IMG/VR virus record: IMGVR_UViG_3300036785_000326
Location: 1-38,486 of that record
Source: a virus
DNA length: 38,486 nucleotides
Reading direction: 5' to 3' (one strand)
Part shown: positions 1 to 38,486 of the stretch, one piece after another
Layout: every line of letters begins with the position of its first letter
Numbering within the stretch: the stretch's first letter is position 1
Translations under genes and position numbers: made by a program
The notes under the pieces: generated by a model
Seen by the model: the letters and a program-made list of their open reading frames with translations, nothing else
What the model was told of the DNA's origin: nothing
Database searches by the model: none

Positions 1-276
1 TTTCGAGTCCACCTAGGGTTGTCAATGACTTAGCTCCGCGCCTCTGGCGCGAGTGTAAAGATTTCCGACACCGCACATGCGAAATGGGGCGGGTGGTCGT
101 AACGCGTGGTAAGCAACTTGATGGCTGGGGCGTCATAGACAAATCGGCCAGTCATTGCGTCCTATAATGTCCGTTTGCGGACGGAGAACGAATGTTCGGT
201 CACCACCACCACCACACGCCAGCCCCGATCAGGCCCCACAGCATGAGGCCGCCCACCACGCCCAGCAACACGCCAC
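1..276. repeat. Terminal direct repeat, left copy
   Basis: Bases 1-276 match 38211-38486 with three differences (positions 128, 129 and 150 here). The window begins and ends exactly with the repeat, as expected for a circular or circularly permuted genome assembled with overlapping ends. A true terminal redundancy is the alternative. The repeat contains no complete recognisable gene. It holds a promoter-like TTGACA on the minus strand (25 to 20), a GC hairpin (37-51) and a TATAAT box (163-168). Confidence 0.95.
163..182 (+). promoter_or_regulatory. Minus-10-like box followed by short hairpin
   Basis: A perfect TATAAT occurs at 163-168 and is repeated at 38373-38378. No good -35 is seen at 16-18 bases upstream; TAGACA (136-141) lies 21 bases away. 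Directly after it, GTCCG-TTTG-CGGAC (169-182) forms a 5-bp stem. A GGAG and ATG at 192 follow, opening a 36-codon His-rich frame to 302 that runs antisense to the end of the leftward operon. This could be a promoter for a short transcript or antisense RNA. It is a weak call. Confidence 0.3.
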
Positions 277-296: not shown

Positions 297-521
297 TCAT
301 AACCACTCCTCCGCCGGATAGTTCTCGCTCAGACATGGCGCGCAAATCATCGTGCCCTCTGGCCACCGCGGTCTCGGTGCCAATGGCGATGAGGCGTCTC
401 CGCAGAAGCTGCACCACTGCCCCGATCGCGAGCGGATAAGCTCGGGGCCACACTTACTGGACGATCGGTGTTCGCGCCGGTGTGCCGTGGCGTTACTGGC
501 CTCTCTTCCGCTGCTTCTCAT
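297..521 (-). CDS. Small zinc-ribbon protein, last gene of leftward operon
   Basis: 74 residues. The C-terminal half carries CSFC (about residues 37-40) and CAPC (about 61-64), a CxxC-x20-CxxC arrangement typical of a small zinc ribbon. The N-terminal third is Arg/Ser-rich and may be disordered. The ATG overlaps the TGA of the upstream RecT-like gene as ATGA, indicating translational coupling. Its own TGA overlaps another ATG at 300, whose frame closes after four codons. Function is unknown. DNA or RNA binding, or a protein-protein role, is possible for such ribbons. Confidence 0.7.
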   Translation of the reverse strand: MRSSGREASNATAHRREHRSSSKCGPELIRSRSGQWCSFCGDASSPLAPRPRWPEGTMICAPCLSENYPAEEWL

Positions 522-1549
522 CCTGCGGCCACCTTCTCCGGCTCAGCCGGCCAGTCCTCGCCCTCGTCGTCCGGCTCCGGCGGGTCGGCTAGGTAGCGCT
601 CCTCGATGGTGCGGTGTGCGGCGATAATGCGCGCCTTGGCCGGTGACGGCTGGCCCATGCCGGCGAGCCTGACGATCTCCACCACCTCGGCCTTCGCGAG
701 CAGGATGCCCAGCTCCGTGTTGTTGGCGTCGCGGGCGACGATCTCCATGCTCTCGGCCCACTGCGCCCAGGTCTTTTTTTCCGGCTCGGGCTGTAGGGGC
801 ACTGCGGCATTGAGGCGGTCACGCTCGGACGGCTGAGCAGCCACAGGCTCCTGCGCCGGCACGGCTGGCTTCAGTCCCGTCGCCTCGAACGGAATGTCCT
901 GTGCCTCCTCGGCGCTCATCAGCCCCTTCAGCACATCGGGGAACGCGTCGCGCAGACAAAAGCCGCGGGCGCGCATCTGCAGCATGCGCTCGGGATAGCT
1001 GTACCAAGGGCCGGCATCGACCTCATATGGGCCGTCACGCCCCTGCTTTTTCCGCTTCGGCTCATCCGACCAAAGTTTGGCGCGCTTCGCGTCCGCGACG
1101 CTGAACTTGCCGCGCACCGGCTGCGGGTCGTCCGCCCGGATTGCCTCGCAGTAGTACGTCAGAGCGTCCCCTTCGCCTTCGTGCCATTCCCGAATACTGC
1201 GGCACTTGCCGGAGGCACGGCACAGGCCGGGGATCGCATCGCCCCAGATCGCCGGACGGCCGTTGACGACCGCGATGTTCTGGATCGCCTGCATCGGCGG
1301 CAACCCGAGTTCGCTGCCCATCTGCACCGCGATGCAGATCGCGTCCGGCTTGCCGATGTAGTCCTTCGGCACCATGCCGGAGCGCGCTGCTTTTTCGGCA
1401 AAGCGCTCGATTTCCTCCCAGCTTTTCAGGCGCACCGGCGCGGGGCGCTGCTGCACTGCCTCCATGCGGTGGATGATGTCGTCCAGCACCGACCGGACTT
1501 CGGCCTCTGGCACGAGGCGCGGTGCCTCCGCTGTTGCGGTCTGGCTCAT
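518..1549 (-). CDS. recT: RecT-family single-strand annealing recombinase
   Basis: 343 residues. The conserved block lies at about residues 40-225: a helical segment, then a region with ICIAVQMGSELGL and GRPAIWGDAIPGL, then YSYPERMLQMRARGF, the last typical of RecT/Bet-like annealing proteins. The family binds single-stranded DNA and anneals complementary strands during phage recombination. The C-terminal third (about 225-343) is variable and acidic, as in many RecT proteins. The gene starts in an ATGA overlap with the Gp157-like gene upstream. No RecE-type exonuclease is adjacent; the VRR-NUC nuclease at 5174 is the only other visible nuclease candidate. The family call is by pattern recognition, not a search. 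Confidence 0.8.
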   Translation of the reverse strand: MSQTATAEAPRLVPEAEVRSVLDDIIHRMEAVQQRPAPVRLKSWEEIERFAEKAARSGMVPKDYIGKPDAICIAVQMGSELGLPPMQAIQNIAVVNGRPAIWGDAIPGLCRASGKCRSIREWHEGEGDALTYYCEAIRADDPQPVRGKFSVADAKRAKLWSDEPKRKKQGRDGPYEVDAGPWYSYPERMLQMRARGFCLRDAFPDVLKGLMSAEEAQDIPFEATGLKPAVPAQEPVAAQPSERDRLNAAVPLQPEPEKKTWAQWAESMEIVARDANNTELGILLAKAEVVEIVRLAGMGQPSPAKARIIAAHRTIEERYLADPPEPDDEGEDWPAEPEKVAAG

Positions 1550-3501: not shown

Positions 3502-3891
3502 TCAGGCGGAGAGGCTGCGACGATTAGCCGGGTGGCGGATACGCTCTGGGCTCTTGCTTTCGGTGACCCTCATTGCGAGGGCGGCCGCGGTTTCGAGGAT
3601 GTTGCTCTGGAGTTTGGTGGGGAGGCGCCGAAAGAACGCGACGAGCCTGATCTCCTCTGGATCATCAAGCAGTAGCTGGTCTTCCGCCGCTAGCCCGCTC
3701 AGCAATTCTGATGGCCTGATCCCGAGAACTCGCGCCAATTCAACCAAATTGCTGGTCTTGATGCCCTTGCCGCCGCCGCCGCCTTCCCACTGAGCCACAG
3801 CGCTTTTGTCGACGCCCAGGCGGTCCGCCAGGACACGCTGGGTGATGCCGGCGCGCAGGCGCGCTGCACGAATCCGATCCCCGATATTCAT
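3502..3891 (-). CDS. XRE-family repressor (CI-like)
   Basis: 129 residues from the ATG at 3891; the much longer upstream frame overlaps the divergent regulator and is discarded. Residues 4-62 form a helix-turn-helix of the XRE/Cro-CI type (RLRAGITQRVLADRLGVDKS, AVAQWE). A five-glycine run (about 37-41) encoded by a GCC/GCG repeat follows, then a hydrophobic helical tail suited to dimerisation. There is no S24 autopeptidase domain, so classic RecA-stimulated self-cleavage is not expected. No clear Shine-Dalgarno precedes the ATG. Divergent from the Cro-like gene and flanked by matching operators, which supports a lysogeny repressor. Confidence 0.8.
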   Translation of the reverse strand: MNIGDRIRAARLRAGITQRVLADRLGVDKSAVAQWEGGGGGKGIKTSNLVELARVLGIRPSELLSGLAAEDQLLLDDPEEIRLVAFFRRLPTKLQSNILETAAALAMRVTESKSPERIRHPANRRSLSA

Positions 3892-3972: not shown

Positions 3973-4179
3973 ATGCGCGATCAATGCCTTGACCGTCTGA
4001 TGCAGATCCGCGGCGCCACGAAGCGTCTGGCCGATGGCCTTGGCATCTCTACGGCCGCCGTGTCGCAGTGGGAGCGGGTGCCTCGCGACCGTGTGGTGCA
4101 GGCCGCCCGCATTCTCGGCGTGTCGCCCGAAGATCTGAGGCCCGACCTCTACACATCCGAACCAGCCGAGGCGGCGTAG
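3973..4179 (+). CDS. Cro/YdaS-like transcriptional regulator
   Basis: 68 residues. Residues 10-58 make a YdaS/Cro-type helix-turn-helix: RGATKRLADGLGISTAAVSQW followed by a second helical pair ending in the GVSPEDLRP turn. YdaS-like proteins typically occupy the Cro position opposite a CI-like repressor. The ATG lies only six bases after the predicted -10 and has no Shine-Dalgarno, so the message is probably leaderless. It is the first gene of the rightward operon and is expected to antagonise the repressor at the shared operators. Confidence 0.75.
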   Translation: MRDQCLDRLMQIRGATKRLADGLGISTAAVSQWERVPRDRVVQAARILGVSPEDLRPDLYTSEPAEAA

Positions 4180-6839: not shown

Positions 6840-7250
6840 ATGACCAAAGACGTATACGACCCGAATCCGAAGCGGAAACCCATCAACCGGCTGACTGCCA
6901 TTGTGGTCAGCAGGGGCGAGAGATGGAAGCCACGCAAGCAGTTGTACCAGTCGTGGTTTGCGTGGCGGGACGTTCCTATTCCGGTCCTCCCGTATCCTGT
7001 TGGTTCGGCTGGCGGCCAAGGAATGGAAATCGGTTTCCGGGCTGGTCGGCTTGTCGTCGTAGGTTATGGCGGCAGTAGCAGCGATGGCGCGAAGTGGGTA
7101 GTTCGCTGTGACTGTGGGGCGTATGGCCACCAAAAGGCTCGATGGTTGCGTTCAGAAGCGGCGAAAGAGCGGGCGGCCTGCCCGGCCTGCGATCACCTAA
7201 TCGAGTTGAAGTCGGGGCGTTACTTCTCCAGCGATGGTGGCGCGCTATGA
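6840..7250 (+). CDS. Zinc-ribbon protein of homing-associated type
   Basis: 136 residues from the ATG at 6840, which has a good AGAGAGG ribosome site. An ATG at 6678 would add 54 residues, but that extension is Arg-rich, spans the hairpin at 6716-6741 and looks non-coding. The C-terminal half has FRAGRLVVVGYGG, KWVVRCDCGAYG and ACPACD, the pattern of small beta/zinc-ribbon phage proteins that often accompany HNH or AP2 domains. No nuclease residues are evident. The end overlaps the replication gene as ATGA. Function unknown. Confidence 0.6.
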   Translation: MTKDVYDPNPKRKPINRLTAIVVSRGERWKPRKQLYQSWFAWRDVPIPVLPYPVGSAGGQGMEIGFRAGRLVVVGYGGSSSDGAKWVVRCDCGAYGHQKARWLRSEAAKERAACPACDHLIELKSGRYFSSDGGAL

Positions 7251-8320
7251 GCCACGCGAACGGTTATCGCTGGTCTAAATTCTGGTGGCAGGACTGGTCG
7301 AGCGACGCGGCGCTTCGGGCGTGCAGCCTGGCCGCGCAGGGCCTGTGGATGCGGCTGCTGTGCATCATGCACGAGGCGACGCCACGGGGTTACCTACTGC
7401 TGGACGGCGAGCCGCCGACCGCCAAACAGCTGGCCGCGATCACCGGGGCGACGCTCAAGGAACTTGCCACATTGCTCGCTGAACTGCGGGCGGCCCGCGT
7501 CTACAGCATCGACGGCGGCGGTTGGATTTATAGCCGCCGGATGGTCAAGGACACCCAGGCTTCGGAGAAGGGGCGCGAGACCGGGAGACTCGGTGGGAAC
7601 CCAAACCTCATCAATGGGGAGATAGCCAAGGAGGATAGGAAGCCCCGTTTCCGAAGGGTCGACCACCCTCGCCGGGTGGAACGGGTGTTTGAGAAGAGCG
7701 ACGGCAGGTGCCATTGGTGCAACGCACCATTGGCCTGGGACGAGTTCCACGTCGACCATGTGATTGCAATCAGAGATGGTGGAGGCAACGACGAGTCGAA
7801 CCTTGTCGCGGCCTGTCCACCCTGTAACGGAAAGCGTGCTGTGGGGTTAACCACTACCGCAACCCCACCCACAACCGAACCGTTAACCCCGTCCGCAACG
7901 GTAGAGTTAACCCCGTCCCACAACCCAGAATCAGACTCAGAGGTACAGTCAGAGCCAGATAAGGAAGAAAGAAAGGTACTTAAATTACCTACTTTAGAGA
8001 AGAAACTCGCGCGAGCGCGCACGGAAAACCCGTCGCCCGACAGCCTCTCGGAGCTCATGGCCGAGGCAAAAATCCCGCAGCCGGAGGGCAAGCTCGACCC
8101 CAACGCCATCACCGCAGCGCACGTCCGCCGGGTCACCAAAGCATGCACCATGAGCATCCCATACGGTGAGGTGCGTTCGGTGGAGGCCCAGATCGATGCT
8201 ATGCGAGACGCACAACCGGCGGCTGTAGGCGCTGAGGTCACCATGGGCCTCAAGTGGAGGCCGGTGGAGCCGGTCCGCTCCGTCGCTGAGCAGCTGGCGT
8301 GGCTGGCGGCCAACCCATGA
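7247..8320 (+). CDS. Replication initiator-like protein with embedded HNH domain
   Basis: 357 residues, started at the ATGA overlap (7247). Residues 8-105 (WSKFWWQDWSSDAALRACS..., then TAKQLAAITGATLKELATLL and YSRRMVKD) are the winged-helix domain of phage replisome-organiser proteins. Residues about 136-198 are a complete HNH nuclease: CHWC (155, 158), HVDH (168-171), N185, CPPCN (190-194). The linker 200-245 is Thr/Pro/Glu-rich and is encoded by 24-bp repeats, probably iterons. The C-terminal region (about 250-357) is helical and may recruit host helicase or loader. HNH within this family's linker is unusual. The role in initiation is inferred from family and the origin-like DNA. Confidence 0.7.
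   Translation: MSHANGYRWSKFWWQDWSSDAALRACSLAAQGLWMRLLCIMHEATPRGYLLLDGEPPTAKQLAAITGATLKELATLLAELRAARVYSIDGGGWIYSRRMVKDTQASEKGRETGRLGGNPNLINGEIAKEDRKPRFRRVDHPRRVERVFEKSDGRCHWCNAPLAWDEFHVDHVIAIRDGGGNDESNLVAACPPCNGKRAVGLTTTATPPTTEPLTPSATVELTPSHNPESDSEVQSEPDKEERKVLKLPTLEKKLARARTENPSPDSLSELMAEAKIPQPEGKLDPNAITAAHVRRVTKACTMSIPYGEVRSVEAQIDAMRDAQPAAVGAEVTMGLKWRPVEPVRSVAEQLAWLAANP
7846..8005. promoter_or_regulatory. Putative replication origin: iterons plus AT-rich tract
   Basis: Three tandem 24-bp units occupy 7858-7881, 7882-7905 and 7906-7929. The last two share GTTAACCCCGTCC exactly, and a half unit GTTAACC sits at 7846-7852. They are followed by an AT- and purine-rich segment (about 7950-8005: aaggaagaaagaaagg, ttaaattacct) that stands out in a GC-rich genome. 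Iterons plus an AT-rich unwinding region inside the initiator gene is the lambdoid O/ori arrangement. The call is by pattern, with no experimental evidence. Confidence 0.6.
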
Positions 8321-20068: not shown

Positions 20069-21024
20069 CCATGTCAGGCACCGACTACACCCAAACGCCT
20101 AACCATGCTTTGTTCAAGCCGATCTACGACCAGGACGTAGACGCCTGGGGCGGCCACCTAAACGAGAACGCAGACACGCTCGATACGCTGCTTGCGGTCT
20201 CCGGCACGCTGACCTTTGTGCCGGTCGCCGGCGGCGCCATGCAGGGCGCGCTCACGCTCTACACCAGCACGCCGTCCGCCGCCCTGGAGGCCGCCTCCAA
20301 GGGCTACGTGGACGCCAACACGCTGCCGCTGGCACCGCAGGACGCCAACACCTACGGCCGCCACATGGGCGCCTGGAGCCCGGTGGTGCCGATCGCCGGC
20401 GGGTCCATGACCGGGCCACTGGTGCTGTCGGGTGACCCCACAGCGGCGCAGCAGGCGGCGACCAAGAACTACGTCGATGGCAAGACTGTCGCGCCGATCG
20501 TCAGCGACACCGCGCCGCCCACCCCGGTCCCCGGCCAATTGTGGTGGGACAGCGTGCATGGCGAGTTGTGTCTCTGGTTTGTCGATCCCAACTCGTCACA
20601 GTGGGTGGTCACCAGCCCGCATGCTGCGGGACCGGCAGGCGTGCCCGGGGCGGCCGGGGCACAGGGTCCGCAGGGACCGTCCGGCCCGCAGATCATTCCC
20701 GCCGCATGGCTCGCGGGTTCGACGCCGAACGGCATCACCCTGTTCATCGCCAGCCGTGCGCTCACCATCACGGCGCTGGTCGGCGTGGCCGAGGTGCTGA
20801 ACGGCGCGGCGGCGACCGTTTCCGTGGTCAAGGCAACCAACGGCCAGGCACTGAGTGCCGGCGCCGCGATCCACAGCGGCTCGTTCAACGCCAACGCAAC
20901 GGCGGGAACCAACCAGACCCTGACCCTGACGACGACGACGATGAACGCAGGCGATCGCCTGGGCCTGGTCTCGACCGGCACGTTCACCGCCTCGGTCGGC
21001 TCGCTCAGCGTGACGGTGCAGTGA
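20065..21024 (+). CDS. Tail fibre protein with repeat modules
   Basis: 319 residues from the ATGA overlap at 20065. Begins with a virion-attachment-like region (TPNHALFKPIYDQDVDAWGG). Two copies of an AGGxMxGxLxL...AAxKxYVD module follow (about 55-90 and 112-148), as found in many fibre shafts. Then a GQLWWDS...LWFVD...SQWV segment, a short collagen-like stretch (GPAGVPGAAGAQGPQGPSGP) and a beta-rich C-terminal head. The same modules occur in the collagen-like protein at 26257-27126. Confidence 0.7.
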   Translation: MTMSGTDYTQTPNHALFKPIYDQDVDAWGGHLNENADTLDTLLAVSGTLTFVPVAGGAMQGALTLYTSTPSAALEAASKGYVDANTLPLAPQDANTYGRHMGAWSPVVPIAGGSMTGPLVLSGDPTAAQQAATKNYVDGKTVAPIVSDTAPPTPVPGQLWWDSVHGELCLWFVDPNSSQWVVTSPHAAGPAGVPGAAGAQGPQGPSGPQIIPAAWLAGSTPNGITLFIASRALTITALVGVAEVLNGAAATVSVVKATNGQALSAGAAIHSGSFNANATAGTNQTLTLTTTTMNAGDRLGLVSTGTFTASVGSLSVTVQ

Positions 21025-24679: not shown

Positions 24680-26257
24680 ATGCCGCGCCAGGCCCAGGCG
24701 CCGCCGCCGGGGATCGTCCGCCAGGCCACGGCGGAAGCCACGCCTGGAATGTGGTTCGATTGCAATAACGTAAGGTTCAGGAACGGCCTGCTGCAGCCCA
24801 CCGGCGGCAATGTCGCGGTGCCCAACGCCGTCACCCCCGACATCCCACGCGACATCCTGACCTGGCACGACAATGCCCATGTCCGCTGGGCGGCGATCGG
24901 CACCGATACCAAGCTGTTCGCCTTCCGCTTCGACACCCAGGTGCTGACCGACATCACCCCGGCCGGTGTCGGCGCGCTCGACCCGCCTGGGCCGCCGGTC
25001 GGCTTCGGGCTGGCCAATTACGGCGAGAGTACCTATGGCACTGCGCGCGATCCGGCCGATATCGGGCCGCAGGACATCGCCGCCAATCAGGGCGACCGCT
25101 GGAGCCTCGACACGTTCGGCCAGGATCTGCTGTTCGTGCCGACCCAGGACGGGCATCTGTATCACTGGTCGCCGACCACCCCGACCACGCCGCCCGATCT
25201 GATCTCCGCTGCACCGACGATGAACCGCGGCGTCATCGTCACCGACCAACGCCAGGTGGTGCTGCTCGCCGCCGGTGGCGATCCGCGCAACATCGCTTGG
25301 TCCGATCAGGAGAGTTACACGGTCTGGGCGCCTGACGTGACCAACTTGGCCGGCAGCAAGTTCCTGCAGACCCAGTCGTACGCGATGACCGCGATCAAGA
25401 CCTCGGCCGGGGTGCTGATCTTTACCGGCAACGATCTGCACCTGATGACCTATGTCGGGCCACCCTATGCTTATGGCGTCACCCAGATCGCCACCGGCTG
25501 TGGTCCGGCCTCGCTGCGTGCGCCGGTCGGCATCGGCAGCACCGTCATCTGGCCAGGCCTGCAGACCTTCTGGTCCTGGGCTGGCAGCGTCACGCCGATC
25601 CCGTGCGCGGTCGGCGATTGGTTCTATTCCCTGGTCAACCGGCCCTATATCGGCCGGCTGTTCGGCAGTCCTAACCCGACCTTTTCCGAAATGTGGTGGG
25701 ACTGGCCGGACGAGGGCAGCCAGGAATGCAACCGCTATCTCGCGGTGAACTTCGCCGGCATGAGTGTCAACCAGCTCGGTGCCGCGGTGCCAAACCGCAC
25801 CTGGACGATCGGCCAGCGGACGCGCTCGGCGGCCGACCCGGTGGGCACTATGGATTACCCGGTGCTGGCCGGCCCGCTCGGCAGCGGCGGGGCACTCTTT
25901 TTGCAGGAATACGGCTGGTTGGATAATGGCGTGTCGCGTGCGGCTGCCGGCGCGATCTACGCGCAGTCGGGAGCGATCACCGCCGGCGAGGGCGATCAGC
26001 GGTTCAATGTCACCCAGGTCATCCCCGATTACAGCGGCACCGTCGCCGACATGCTGGGCTTTTCGTTCGACGTGTCCGAGGAACCGATGGACACCGCCAA
26101 CGGCTACAACACCGGACTCTACAGCGTCACCCACAACGGCCTGATGGACGTGCGGTTCTCCGGCCGTTCGGTGGCCATGCGGATCGAGGCGCTGGCTGAC
26201 GGCGACTGGGCTCTTGGTCGGCCGAGGCTGCTGATGGGCAGGGCGGGAATGCGCTGA
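24680..26257 (+). CDS. Tail hub/nozzle (stabilisation) protein, beta-propeller-like
   Basis: 525 residues from the ATG at 24680 (a TTG at 24668 is possible). [20 protein letters not shown] and [20 protein letters not shown] then KLFAFRFD are typical of P22 gp10-like podovirus tail stabilisation or nozzle proteins. Repeated [18 protein letters not shown] and [15 protein letters not shown] blades suggest a beta-propeller. It would close the tail channel below the adaptor. The next gene starts within its stop (TGATGG). Confidence 0.7.
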
Positions 26258-27126
26258 TGGCCTACTATCCGCCCGCGCCCTACATCGCGCCGTTTCAGGG
26301 TGACATCGACCAGAAGCTGTCGATCATCACCGCCTGGATCTCGCAGCATCGGGTGGACATCTCGTCGCTGCAGCAGGGCACCGGCAGCGGTGGCTCGGGC
26401 GCCGATCTGCCGCTCGCTGGCGGCACCATGACCGGGCCGCTGATCCTGGCGCGCGATCCGGTCGGCGTGCTGGAGGCGGCGACCAAGGAATACGTCGATG
26501 GCCACGCCGGGCCTGCCGGGCCGCAGGGACCGGCCGGGCCAACCGGACCCGCAGGACCGACCGGAGCCACTGGCACTGCCGGCACACCGGGCGCCACTGG
26601 CCCTACAGGGCCGCAGGGACCGATCGGGCTGACCGGCGCCACCGGTGCTACTGGCGCCGCCAGCACCGTCCCAGGGCCGCCTGGCGCCACTGGTGCGACT
26701 GGTCCGGCCGGTGCCGACAGCACGGTGCCAGGACCGACCGGTCCGCAAGGTCCGCAAGGCGTTCCCGGCACGACTGGCGCAACGGGCGCTACTGGGCCGG
26801 CGGGACCGACCGGCGCTACCGGGGCTGCCAGCACGGTCCCAGGCCCACAAGGCCCGCAGGGCATCCAGGGCGCTACCGGCACGACAGGCGCTACCGGTCC
26901 GCAAGGGCCGATCGGCAATACCGGCGCGCAGGGTCCACAGGGCATTCAGGGTGCAACCGGCCCGCAAGGCCCCGTCGGGCCGGCGATGATGGCCGCCGTC
27001 TCCGACACCGCGCCGGCCTCTCCCGCGCAGGGTCAGCTGTGGTGGGACAGCGCCAAAGGCTTCCTCTACATCTGGTTCAATGACGGAACGTCCGCACAGT
27101 GGGTGCGGGCGTCGGCACCGGCATGA
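26257..27126 (+). CDS. Collagen-like tail fibre
   Basis: 289 residues. The N-terminus is a short trimerisation-like helix region, followed by [18 protein letters not shown] and AATKEYVDG. About 50 Gly-X-Y triplets then run from roughly residue 85 to 240, interrupted three times by an STVPGP insert. The C-terminus [20 protein letters not shown] copies a segment of the fibre at 20065-21024. Trimeric collagen-like shafts are common in phage fibres. The DNA is highly repetitive, so copy number may vary between isolates. Confidence 0.8.
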
Positions 27127-34815: not shown

Positions 34816-34908
34816 GCCTGCAAACGTAATACGACGCACGACCGGAGTAAACCGCAATCAGTATGCACCCGCTGCGGTCGCAGTATGCACAACGTGCAGG
34901 AGGCTCCA
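34816..34908. promoter_or_regulatory. Divergent control region with direct repeats
   Basis: Contains CAGTATGCAC at 34859-34868 and 34881-34890, 22 bases apart (two helical turns), suited to an RHH regulator. On the minus strand, TTGCGG followed by a TATTAC box about 20 bases later is a weak promoter candidate for the regulator operon. On the plus strand, AGGAGG (34898-34903) five bases before TTG at 34909 is the ribosome site of the next gene. Confidence 0.5.
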
Positions 34909-36636
34909 TTGCCGACATCCGTACCCACGAGCCGCGAGTTCCTGGCGCTGGAGCGGCGCGTCGCCGCACTGGAGGCTGGACCGCCAGGCACGCCCGAGCA
35001 TCCCATCGTCATCCCGCCATGGGAGCCACCAGACATCGACCCGCCAGACCCACCAGCCGCCGGGCAACTGCGCGCCACGGTGCTGCTGGAGGGCCAGTCG
35101 TTCGAGTTCAACGAGGCCGCCGCCTCCACCATCGGCGACTACCACGACCCGGCCGGGCGCTTCACCATGACGTGCCACCGGCTGATGCTGGACGGCTGCG
35201 ACATCCGGGTGGACTTCCGCCGCATCGAGGGCTGGTCCTGCATCGTGTTCGAGCGCTCGGACGGCCTCATTGCCACGGCGCCGGTCAACCTGCCGGCCCA
35301 TGTCGTGGTGATCGTCGATGACGCCGGCGGCAGCCACAGCATCGAACTGCCGGCGCACTACTGGGCGGCGCGCTGGCGCTGGCAGTCAGGGCCGTGGCCG
35401 ATCCCGCTCGCCAGCGTCGATGACCTGGAGGAAGCCAACCTGCTGCCGCGCCTCGACCCCGCGGTGAACCGGGGCACTGCCCGGCCGCTGGGCGTCCCCA
35501 GCTACACCCCGATGAGCACCGCCGGGCTCACCGGCGAGATGCCGGCAACGGGCGGGCGCGCCGATATCGGCATCGTCACCGACTGGCAGGGCGAATATCT
35601 CTGCACCCGCTCGGCCGAAATGCTGGCCGGCATCATCGCCCAGGGCGAAGGCGGCGCGACCTTTCCGTGGTTCTTCCACGATCCGGCGAAGGGTCGGCAG
35701 ATGGACCTGATGAACGACTGGAAATACAAGACCTGCTACTGGAACAATCAGCCGGACAATTACATCAATCGCGCCGCCGTGCCCGGTATCACCATCGACG
35801 TGTCGCACATGCCGGCCTGCGCCTACCTCCCGTTCGTGCTGACCGGCGACCCCTACTTCCTGGAGACCCAGCAGGCGATGGCGAATTACGCCTTCCTCGA
35901 CACGCCGCGCAGCTGGGAGTGGGTCTACCAGATGCCTGGCACCGGGCAGACCAGGGCGATGGCGTGGGACCTGCGCACCATCATGCAGGCCGCCGCGGTG
36001 ACGCCCGACGAAGTTCCCAGCTGGCTGCTGGGGAAGTCGGTGATGCGCCAGATGCTGGCGCAGTGCGTCAAGGGCCTCGACGCCATCATGCACGACGGCA
36101 ACGCCCATCGCGCCGGGCTGCACAGCATCGACTGGGGGCTACCGTCCGACCCGGATCCGCCGGGCTGCTGGTCACGCCCCTGGCAAACGTCGTTCTTCGC
36201 CCAGGCTGCCGGGTGGGGCGCCATGCTGCACCCCGAGCTGCGCGCGGTCGCTGGCTACATCGCCCACAACATGATTGCACGGGCCGATGGCAAGGACTGG
36301 GATGCGTCGTTCCCGGCGCCTTATTCGCTGATGCTGCGCTCGTCGCAGGCGGATGGCGCCTGGTATGGCGACTGGGATGAGTGCTGGGCCGCCACCGCGC
36401 CGTCGCTGGGCGTGTCGCCAACTGCGCCATTCACAAACCAGATGACGACCTTCCCCGATTACCACGGCGGCTTCTACGCCGGGCTGTGCGCGCTGGCACA
36501 CGCCAGGGCGGCCGGGGTGGAGGAAATCCCCGGCGAGGTGTTCGCCGTGTTGGAGCGCTATGCCGGGCAGATGACGGCGCTGCTGGATCAGGGCGGCGAC
36601 AAGTTCCTGACTTGGAACAACAGCTATTCCCGATGA
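34909..36636 (+). CDS. Putative tailspike or glycan-active virion protein
   Basis: 575 residues from a TTG with a perfect AGGAGG five bases upstream; an in-frame ATG at 34885 is the alternative. Residues 8-24 are a short coiled coil (SREFLALERRVAALEAG), then a Pro-rich arm and a beta domain (about 55-150). Residues about 200-575 consist of helical hairpins with aromatic clusters (MPACAYLPFVLTGDPYFLET, WEWVYQMPGTGQTRAMAWDL, FPDYHGGFYAGLCALAHARA), recalling alpha/alpha-toroid lyases or epimerases. It could depolymerise host exopolysaccharide. Fold guess only. Lies just ahead of the lysis genes. Confidence 0.5.
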   Translation: MPTSVPTSREFLALERRVAALEAGPPGTPEHPIVIPPWEPPDIDPPDPPAAGQLRATVLLEGQSFEFNEAAASTIGDYHDPAGRFTMTCHRLMLDGCDIRVDFRRIEGWSCIVFERSDGLIATAPVNLPAHVVVIVDDAGGSHSIELPAHYWAARWRWQSGPWPIPLASVDDLEEANLLPRLDPAVNRGTARPLGVPSYTPMSTAGLTGEMPATGGRADIGIVTDWQGEYLCTRSAEMLAGIIAQGEGGATFPWFFHDPAKGRQMDLMNDWKYKTCYWNNQPDNYINRAAVPGITIDVSHMPACAYLPFVLTGDPYFLETQQAMANYAFLDTPRSWEWVYQMPGTGQTRAMAWDLRTIMQAAAVTPDEVPSWLLGKSVMRQMLAQCVKGLDAIMHDGNAHRAGLHSIDWGLPSDPDPPGCWSRPWQTSFFAQAAGWGAMLHPELRAVAGYIAHNMIARADGKDWDASFPAPYSLMLRSSQADGAWYGDWDECWAATAPSLGVSPTAPFTNQMTTFPDYHGGFYAGLCALAHARAAGVEEIPGEVFAVLERYAGQMTALLDQGGDKFLTWNNSYSR

Positions 36637-37001
36637 GCCACATCGCGGAGCGCCATGAGCACCATCTCGGCAAGGTGGTCGGCAACGGTCACTGCGTAGC
36701 CTTTGTGCGGGAAGTGACTGGCCTGCCGCAGACCAGTGAGTGGCGGCGCGGGGAACGGGTGCGTGGATCTGCCGCCGCGCGAGGCACCGCCATCGCGACG
36801 TTCGATCCCGATGGCCGCTATGGCAACCACATGGACGGGCGAAGCCATGCCGCCATCCTGCTCGCGGTGAACGAGGATGGCCTGCTGGTGGTCGACCAGT
36901 GGGTCGGCCGCACGGTGCGTGACCGCGTGCTGCCGTTCCGCGGCGGTCGGGGTGATGCGGCGAACGACGGCGACGCCTTCAGTGTCGTTGAAACCGCGTG
37001 A
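36633..37001 (+). CDS. BPSL0067-family protein, endolysin candidate
   Basis: 122 residues from the ATGA overlap at 36633. VVGNGHCVAFVREVTGLPQT (C21), TSEWRRGERVRG, RGTAIATFDPDGRYGNHMDG, RSHAAILL (H72) and LLVVDQWVG (D88) match BPSL0067-type proteins, which have a Cys-His arrangement like NlpC/P60 or CHAP amidases. It is followed directly by a holin-like gene, so it is the best endolysin candidate in the genome. There is no export signal, consistent with holin dependence. Confidence 0.7.
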   Translation: MSHIAERHEHHLGKVVGNGHCVAFVREVTGLPQTSEWRRGERVRGSAAARGTAIATFDPDGRYGNHMDGRSHAAILLAVNEDGLLVVDQWVGRTVRDRVLPFRGGRGDAANDGDAFSVVETA

Positions 37002-37249
37002 GACTGCCGCGCGATGTGGACATTCGCAGCCTCGCGGCGATCCTGTTCGCCTTTGTCGTCATCATGGTGTTCGGCGGTATTGCCGTAGTTGGCGTCGTGT
37101 GCCGGATCGGCGGGGATGCCACGCTCTGTCTCGGCAACAACCCGGAGGTGCTGAGTACCTTCAAGAGCCTGATTGAGAACATCGTGGCGATCCTGCTGGC
37201 GCTGATGGCCGGCACCGCCGGGCGGTCGCCACCGCCGCCGCCTGGCTGA
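36998..37249 (+). CDS. Holin-like two-span membrane protein
   Basis: 83 residues from a GTG in a GTGA overlap. Two hydrophobic segments (about 10-35, SLAAILFAFVVIMVFGGIAV, and 57-73) separated by a polar loop with two cysteines (residues 35 and 44). Short Pro-rich tail. Size, topology and coupling to the endolysin candidate suggest a class II holin. Confidence 0.65.
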   Translation: MRLPRDVDIRSLAAILFAFVVIMVFGGIAVVGVVCRIGGDATLCLGNNPEVLSTFKSLIENIVAILLALMAGTAGRSPPPPPG

Positions 37250-37398: not shown

Positions 37399-37437
37399 CA
37401 GATATCGATCCAGGGCAAACAGACGGCGATATAGAGT

Positions 37438-37475
37438 GACGCCACGGGGGCGGCAATCGGAATCCCCGTGGCGTC
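37438..37475. terminator. Strong inverted repeat, probable terminator
   Basis: GACGCCACGGGG (37438-37449) and CCCCGTGGCGTC (37464-37475) form a perfect 12-bp stem with a 14-base loop. No long T-run follows on either strand, so termination may be partial or need another factor. It lies just beyond the PEP-CTERM stop and beyond the late genes, isolating the two convergent units. Confidence 0.6.
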
Positions 37476-37496
37476 CTGACCGCAGGCGGTGGTGCG

Positions 37497-38171
37497 CTAC
37501 CGCCGGCGGCGCAGTTGGGTGAAGCCGAGTCCGATCAGGCCCAGCCCGAGAATGCCGAGCGAGGCCGGCTCGGGCACGGTGGTCTGCGAGAACGTGTCGG
37601 TGACCAGGCTGATCGCCGCGGACCCGCCGTTGGCATTGACGGCGATATCCTTGAGCACGTTCACCGAGCCGGTGTTGGAGAACGTCACGGCGTCGCTGAG
37701 CGTCACCTGTCCGGCGCGGTCGACCGTCAGCAGGTTGCTGTTGTTGCTCAGGTTCTCGGAGACCGAGCCGATACCGCCGCCCGAGAACGACGAGCCAGCC
37801 TGTACCAGCGCGGCGTCATGGATAAACACGCCGCCCGTGGGTGGCGTGACCGCGACCGTGAAGCCGATGGCGCTGTCGAGGCTCTGCAGACCGCCGACAT
37901 TCCATGGCGCATTGAACTGGAAGCCGATGGCCGACGCACCCTGGTTGATCGTCGTGATGACGACCTCAGAGGCGGCGATCGGCGTTGCTCCACCACCGCC
38001 GGTGTCGGTGTAAGTGAAGTTGCTGAAGGTCTTGTCGCCGACGGTGCAGGTGAAGCCGGCCCCGAGCCATTGCCCGAGATTGGCGCCCGACAGGCAGGCG
38101 GCGGCGTTGGCGTTTACCGAAAGACCACCAGCACCCGCGAAGGCGATGGTGGCGAGCAGGATGCGTTTCAT
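37497..38171 (-). CDS. PEP-CTERM sorting-domain exported protein
   Basis: 224 residues from the ATG at 38171, with AAGGA five to six bases upstream; an upstream in-frame ATG at 38222 lacks a ribosome site. Residues 1-23 are a signal peptide (MKRILLATIAFAGAGG..., cleavage after ANA). The mature part is beta-rich, Gly/Ser/Asn-rich with two cysteines (26, 42). The C-terminus is a complete PEP-CTERM tripartite signal: VPEPASL (199-205), hydrophobic helix (about 204-219) and RRRR (221-224). In bacteria exosortase (EpsH) recognises this signal and the protein goes to the cell surface or exopolysaccharide matrix. No exosortase is encoded here, so the host must supply it. Own promoter-like TTGACA and a downstream hairpin mark it as a cargo gene. 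Confidence 0.85.
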   Translation of the reverse strand: MKRILLATIAFAGAGGLSVNANAAACLSGANLGQWLGAGFTCTVGDKTFSNFTYTDTGGGGATPIAASEVVITTINQGASAIGFQFNAPWNVGGLQSLDSAIGFTVAVTPPTGGVFIHDAALVQAGSSFSGGGIGSVSENLSNNSNLLTVDRAGQVTLSDAVTFSNTGSVNVLKDIAVNANGGSAAISLVTDTFSQTTVPEPASLGILGLGLIGLGFTQLRRRR

Positions 38172-38206
38172 GGGAGTTCCTTGCACAAGGTGCGGGGCTA
38201 GCAAAT

Positions 38207-38261
38207 GCAATTTCGAGTCCACCTAGGGTTGTCAATGACTTAGCTCCGCGCCTCTGGCGCG
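38207..38261 (-). promoter_or_regulatory. Promoter region of the PEP-CTERM gene
   Basis: On the minus strand a perfect TTGACA (38235-38230) is followed by 17 bases and AATTGC (38212-38207), a poor -10, about 35 bases before the ATG. Just upstream, CGCGCC-TCT-GGCGCG (38247-38261) is a 6-bp-stem hairpin that may be a factor site. The segment is within the terminal repeat and so occurs also at 1-51. The CCTTG/CAAGG arms (38179-38190) overlap the ribosome site. Confidence 0.45.
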
Positions 38262-38486
38262 AGTGTAAAGATTTCCGACACCGCACATGCGAAATGGGGC
38301 GGGTGGTCGTAACGCGTGGTAAGCAACTTGATGGCTGATGCGTCATAGACAAATCGGCCGGTCATTGCGTCCTATAATGTCCGTTTGCGGACGGAGAACG
38401 AATGTTCGGTCACCACCACCACCACACGCCAGCCCCGATCAGGCCCCACAGCATGAGGCCGCCCACCACGCCCAGCAACACGCCAC
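38211..38486. repeat. Terminal direct repeat, right copy
   Basis: Second copy of the 276-base terminal sequence. It differs from the left copy at 38338, 38339 and 38360. Imperfect identity suggests strain variation or read errors at the assembly ends rather than a trivially trimmed overlap. If the two copies are collapsed, the genome is 38,210 bases and the PEP-CTERM gene lies upstream-to-downstream next to the end of the leftward early operon. Confidence 0.95.

Follow-up and report, generated by a model that had tools for sequence, protein, structure and literature searches.

A phage-borne PEP-CTERM protein gene with a predicted promoter of the bacterial exosortase-substrate regulon

Introduction

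The viral record IMGVR_UViG_3300036785_000326 (38,486 nt, analyzed over its whole length and called the window here) carries, close to its end, a gene whose product resembles a bacterial exosortase substrate. The locus raises the questions of whether the gene belongs to the phage, how it is switched on, and what a phage could gain from it. The initial annotation knew of no established description of such proteins as phage cargo, and a full-text search of the non-subscription literature likewise returned no study of phage-encoded PEP-CTERM proteins. That statement needs one amendment: proteins with the TIGR03118 exosortase-interaction domain were tallied among horizontally acquired genes in virus contigs from Yellowstone hot springs (PMC11003980). 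These belong to another family, and the tally is a single sentence without promoter, sorting, or functional analysis; beyond this passing mention, phage use of the exosortase pathway was not found described.

Features of the predicted protein

37497..38171, minus strand: PEP-CTERM protein gene (224 amino acids, ATG at 38171)

The translated protein comprises a predicted signal peptide (residues ~1 to 23), an ectodomain with a GDKTFSNF motif, a VPEP motif, a hydrophobic helix (residues ~202 to 220), and an RRRR tail. The C terminus, TTVPEPASLGILGLGLIGLGFTQLRRRR, scores 24 to 29 bits against TIGR02595 (NCBIfam; cut-off, 16) and 28.1 against PF07589 (Pfam; cut-off, 20.7), so that the sorting tail, VPEPASLGILGLGLIGLGFTQLRRRR, lies above both curated cut-offs. 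The N terminus, MKRILLATIAFAGAGGLSVNANA, is like a Sec signal peptide by inspection and by its resemblance to those of 13 homologues. The exosortase-substrate tail read from the gene initially is borne out, and the product is predicted to be a PEP-CTERM protein. No PHROG family matched it.

The GDK.F pattern is invariant across 14 homologues. An AlphaFold2 model (pLDDT, 78) consists of a beta-sandwich and a C-terminal helix, and the top Foldseek matches in the PDB are carbohydrate-binding modules (CBM61, a hyaluronan-binding module, and CBM32; E values of 5e-5 to 3e-4) with TM-scores of 0.25 to 0.48. Because these scores are below 0.5, the ectodomain is read no further than as a beta-sandwich, perhaps glycan binding. 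A sequence search of the PDB with the protein gave no match. Membership in the PepA flocculation family of Zoogloea and Aquincola (NF033554) was rejected: the C-terminal half and tail align (residues 125 to 222) at 33.8 bits, against an equivalog cut-off of 80.

Genomic context

38211..38486: terminal repeat, 99% identical to positions 1..276 (3 mismatches)
518..1549, minus strand: RecT-type annealing protein (phrog_561, E = 1.5e-43; PF03837), whose gene directly precedes that of the PEP-CTERM protein on the circle
3502..3891, minus strand: CI-like helix-turn-helix repressor (HTH_3, 44.7 bits; a longer ORF corresponds to phrog_4, transcriptional repressor)
4000..4179, plus strand: Cro-like repressor (P22_Cro, 34.9 bits; cut-off, 30.2), divergent from the CI-like gene
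36633..37001, plus strand: lysis-cassette gene for a lysin-like protein (122 amino acids), convergent with the PEP-CTERM gene
36998..37249, plus strand: holin-like small membrane protein (weak match to the PHROG 9752 holin, E = 0.0056)
37437..37477, minus strand: hairpin with a 12-bp core stem, between the PEP-CTERM gene and the convergent lysis cassette

The terminal repeat closes the record into a circle of ~38,210 bp. Its phage genes include those for TerL, an SU10-type portal, a scaffold, major head proteins, tail fibers, RecT, and a Gp157-like protein. On the circle, the RecT gene is followed after 0.6 kb by the PEP-CTERM gene, which faces the holin-like and lysin-like genes. The PEP-CTERM gene shares the strand of the RecT and Gp157 genes, following their 3' end, and is opposite to the late genes, as first reported. 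The lysin-like protein has homologues in 10 phage contigs, and homologues are encoded beside PEP-CTERM genes in L079, L085, and L100. Pfam gave no domain in it or in its homologues at L079 18158..18523 and L100 3041..3406, so that the label "lysin" is an inferred one.

The position of the gene near the contig end, shared by its homologue in another contig (L002), would suit an artifact in which a segment of host DNA was fused to a phage contig. The terminal repeat, however, closes the circle beyond the gene, and a relative with 77% identity in RecT (L079, G026:C1:722-20721) has the equal gene order on one piece of DNA:

L079 15711..16739: RecT
L079 17057..17599: PEP-CTERM protein, followed by convergent small membrane and lysin-like genes

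Several other contigs also carry phage genes on both sides of a PEP-CTERM gene. A chimeric end is rejected on the closing repeat and the order in L079, and the probability left to an artifact is negligible.

The PEP-CTERM protein in the matching slot of L079 has an ectodomain that is not homologous to that of the window. A further relative (G010; 93% identity in the major capsid protein) has the lysis cassette and no PEP-CTERM gene in its 20 kb. Because the gene has its own candidate promoter element (see below), is convergent with the lysis genes, differs in ectodomain in L079, and is missing from the G010 fragment, it is accessory phage cargo, an autonomous unit between modules in a moron-type layout. 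The earlier proposal of phage-encoded cargo forming an independent unit is upheld to this extent. The strong downstream hairpin, also noted previously, is real (RNA fold of -30.8 kcal/mol; z = -2.8); it has no T-tract and is not called as a terminator.

The CI/Cro-like pair notwithstanding, stable lysogeny is uncertain, since an integrase domain (PF00589) could be detected neither in the window genome nor in 26 of 28 records.

Other features of the window are collagen-like GxY repeats (26500..26666) in a tail-region protein (26257..27126), a stretch of 114 nt (26389..26502) repeated with 73% identity at 20368..20481, and a single ORF (7142..8320) that joins a replisome-organizer-like N-terminal part to an HNH endonuclease domain (residues ~181 to 231).

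Promoter architecture

38206..38221, minus strand: sigma-54-type -24/-12 element, TGGACTCGAAATTGCA (GG-N10-GC spacing), ending 34 nt before the ATG
38264..38280, minus strand: predicted PrsR-type site, a 17-nt enhancer-like box, TGTCGGAAATCTTTACA, ending in TTTACA and separated by 42 nt from the downstream -24 element

Both elements were found by comparing the regions upstream of the PEP-CTERM genes of the window and L079. The -24 half in the window (TGGACT) is imperfect; at the equivalent place, L079 has a perfect sigma-54 element, TGGCACAAAATTTGCA. The box of the window matches the phage consensus at 16 of 17 positions, its counterpart in L079 is AGTCGGCAAACTTTACA, and the distance from box to sigma-54 element is 41 to 42 nt in the two phages. 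The box is the sole such site in the circular genome (chance, 0.05), a second match at 54..69 being the terminal repeat. The TTGACA hexamer noted initially is present; it has no -10 partner or sigma-70-type promoter, reads TTGATT in L079, and is not conserved, and the sigma-54 element with its enhancer box replaces it as the candidate promoter.

Among 23 phage PEP-CTERM genes, 10 have the pair of box and sigma-54 element in front of them, including those of L094, L095, and L101; among 266 other phage genes, none does (mean in shuffled sequences, 0.035; Fisher P = 1.2e-12, an optimistic value because the box consensus was derived from these very sequences). The remaining 13 genes have no detectable pair, so the wiring is not universal. 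When the viral collection was scanned with the regulatory pattern alone, 5 of the 12 matches lay directly before PEP-CTERM ORFs, 3 of them absent from the census of sorting signals described below. In randomly drawn Pseudomonadota genomes, the pair was found, at a slightly looser threshold, before 17 of 34 PEP-CTERM ORFs. The exact pattern gave one match in 399 Pseudomonadota genomes, and no PEP-CTERM gene followed it; boxes in bacteria vary more than this pattern allows, and the looser threshold accommodates them.

According to Haft 2006, proteobacterial PEP-CTERM genes are preceded by a 17-nt motif ending in TTTACA (motif 1), a spacer of 32 to 92 nt, and a sigma-54 motif (motif 2) located 23 to 221 nt from the ATG, and PrsR is the predicted activator (PMC1569441). 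The window gene has the layout of the PrsK-PrsR regulon as worded there, with box, spacer of 42 nt, -24/-12 element, and 34 nt to the ATG. For a PEP-CTERM gene of Aquincola, dependence on sigma-54 (RpoN) has been demonstrated (PMC9850573). The motifs of Haft 2006, the pattern-only viral scan, and the bacterial PEP-CTERM ORFs are three independent lines of support for the association. The promoter appears to be a cis-element of the bacterial PEP-CTERM regulon, by which the gene would be slaved to host signaling.

At two further viral sites (L115 4833..4927 and L112 2499..2593, both on the minus strand), the pair stands before ORFs that do not encode PEP-CTERM proteins and may be other regulon members or chance matches. 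Positions 1..127 of L114, which include a box and sigma-54 site, match a Pseudomonadota chromosome without a difference (G445:C4, near 488,000), after which similarity ends, possibly marking an integration end and a link to a host.

Distribution and diversification in phages

The unrelated phage L002 encodes a homologue of the window ectodomain (GDKTFSNF family) at 65 to 68% identity, and bacterial genomes of several phyla contain homologues at 27 to 37%. A census based on the sorting signal added 24 viral contigs, all above the cut-off; with the window, L002, L079, and 3 contigs from the promoter scan, about 30 viral records carry such genes. This total includes probable near-duplicates (L091/L092, L100/L102, and G070/G071), and two contigs (L084 and L090) are doubtful, having no clear phage gene within the stretch examined. 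TerL was recognized by one PHROG in 11 of 27 contigs, and in most contigs examined the PEP-CTERM genes have phage genes nearby, among them those for other terminases, tail sheath proteins, endolysins, and structural proteins. The tail scores and these homologues in other phages are what searches with PEP-CTERM models and viral databases, proposed at the outset, have yielded, and neither the tail nor the contig end speaks against phage-borne cargo. A search of 50,697 GenBank phages, in which the low-complexity filter may hide tails, gave no match to any of six queries, five of them phage PEP-CTERM proteins and the sixth a sorting tail.

Adjacent pairs of PEP-CTERM genes occur in 11 of the 24 census contigs and also in G017; in many of the census pairs, the stop of one gene overlaps the start of the next by a few bases. 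Pairs were seen at L080, L083, L085, L094 to L096, L098, L100 to L102, L104, and L105; the first member mostly belongs to an LQI(S/A)ADxxGxxF family and the second to a GRTGIN family or to one with a replaced ectodomain. Several pairs overlap by 4 bases, which suggests coupled translation. Between the second-gene proteins of L095 and L101, the signal peptide is 94% and the tail 92% identical, with 24% identity in the ectodomain, a case of ectodomain exchange between constant targeting parts. For the second-gene family, the structure model was of insufficient quality to interpret (pLDDT, 52).

Near phage PEP-CTERM genes in at least 7 contigs, a proline-rich family with repeated PxHPI motifs was also observed (L080 12094..12690, L093 2146..2718, L106 3408..4025, and L079 19110..19742, minus strand; L085 3064..3660, L089 6224..6811, and L097 3755..4366), L079 and L097 being grouped by eye. 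A window ORF (34885..36636) has a PEHPIVIPP stretch too.

All 12 pairs of phage copies tested gave dN/dS values of 0.10 to 0.55 (0.33 for the window versus L002), which indicates purifying selection on these as phage genes. They bear on whether the gene is a passenger, captured recently by chance from a host together with its promoter and kept without selection. The bacterial type of both promoter and protein, and the G010 fragment with a lysis cassette and no such gene, would fit a passenger. It is disfavored, and quite improbable, in view of the dN/dS values, the recurrence in about 30 records, the tandem pairs, the ectodomain replacement within a single slot, and a composition (GC and GC3, the latter 0.86) equal to that of the phage genes.

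A product of the lysis or late program is another candidate, which might coat debris or cell surfaces against the loss of progeny by readsorption, or loosen the matrix. PEP-CTERM genes adjoin lysis genes in the window, L079, L002, L088, and L094/L095/L101, and in the last three they share the late strand with a GH25 endolysin gene, which they immediately follow. Yet the genes of the window, L079, and G017 are oriented against the late genes, others adjoin terminase or other modules instead, and the 10 genes with their own sigma-54 and box element include those of L094, L095, and L101. A late function is considered unlikely on balance. In L094, L095, and L101, late read-through could be an additional route of expression, and because of such late-strand, endolysin-adjacent genes in other phages, expression restricted to lysogens should not be assumed.

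Host dependence and proposed role

Searches of 28 phage records for exosortase (PF09721) and of 25 for PrsR (TIGR02915) found neither; many records are fragments, so that both absences are firm only for the window. Supply of both by the host is the simplest reading: activator and sorting machinery are presumably taken from an exosortase-bearing proteobacterium. The best GenBank phage relative of RecT, at 56% identity, is from a Komagataeibacter phage, a hint to the host.

The reading considered moderately probable is that of an accessory, moron-type cargo gene that plugs into two host systems, expression and display, and alters the cell surface. A host PrsR-type enhancer-binding protein would bind the TGTCGG...TTTACA box and activate the sigma-54 RNA polymerase of the host, positioned at the -24/-12 element, and the phage copy would be switched on along with the host's own PEP-CTERM and exopolysaccharide genes. 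The product would be exported by Sec, its tail cut by the host exosortase, and its ectodomain displayed at the cell surface or embedded in exopolysaccharide matrix. The altered surface of the infected or lysogenic cell would most plausibly block adsorption of other phages or change aggregation and attachment. We infer the use of host PrsR, sigma-54, and exosortase, the display, and the benefit; for the role, surface alteration or superinfection exclusion is likeliest, judged from layout and ectodomain turnover.

Alternatively, the matrix protein of a prophage might strengthen the flocs or biofilm of a lysogen (lysogenic conversion), with no antiphage role. Bacteria need PEP-CTERM proteins, which tether exopolysaccharide to the cell, to form flocs (PMC9850573 and PMC9012009); the phage promoter imitates the regulon of this floc and matrix program; and the window has a CI/Cro-like switch. 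The integrase search described above, the lack of a PepA-level match, and the rapid replacement of ectodomains, more in keeping with an arms race over an interaction than with a structural role that is conserved, all argue against such a benefit to the host, to which a small likelihood is assigned. Because the ectodomains change and the targeting parts do not, superinfection exclusion is slightly favored over it.

More generally, and more tentatively than the proposal for the single gene, phages of exopolysaccharide-forming proteobacteria might carry a modular surface-display cassette with a constant signal peptide, exosortase tail, and sigma-54/PrsR promoter and with exchangeable, often paired ectodomains. 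If so, this would be the first phage system to exploit the exosortase pathway, and superinfection immunity or surface change would be tied to the host's own matrix program. Exosortase systems are widespread in environmental bacteria and poorly understood, and a phage gene wired to the matrix regulon would link infection to floc and biofilm state. As natural minimal exosortase substrates with swappable ectodomains, the phage genes would allow a direct test of how PEP-CTERM surface proteins function. The cis-element and tail together make it simple to search metagenomes for further genes of this kind, and they also indicate proteobacterial hosts that carry PrsR.

Comparison with known systems

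With bacterial exosortase substrates under PrsK-PrsR/sigma-54 promoters, as described in Haft 2006, the window gene shares the predicted signal peptide, PEP-CTERM tail, and single-gene layout (PMC1569441; TIGR02595), as well as the TTTACA-ending 17-nt box and sigma-54 element, at a spacing of 42 nt here and 32 to 92 nt there. Aquincola pepA has the same promoter type, and the window protein scores far under the PepA cut-off. The window gene differs from bacterial substrate genes in being phage encoded, in having no exosortase or PrsR of its own, and in an ectodomain 27 to 37% identical to bacterial homologues.

Among phage genes, the lambda morons bor and lom are comparable. They encode a lipoprotein and an outer-membrane protein, respectively, and bor is situated immediately past the lysis genes in reverse orientation. 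Like the window gene, bor and lom are accessory envelope-protein genes at a module boundary; unlike it, neither has exosortase sorting or a sigma-54 host-regulon promoter. Llp of T5 and Cor are phage-made envelope proteins that mediate superinfection exclusion, are thought to alter receptor access, and use lipoprotein targeting. Targeting and promoters differ from those of the window gene, and homology is not expected; what Llp and Cor would have in common with it is a surface protein made by the phage, as proposed here.
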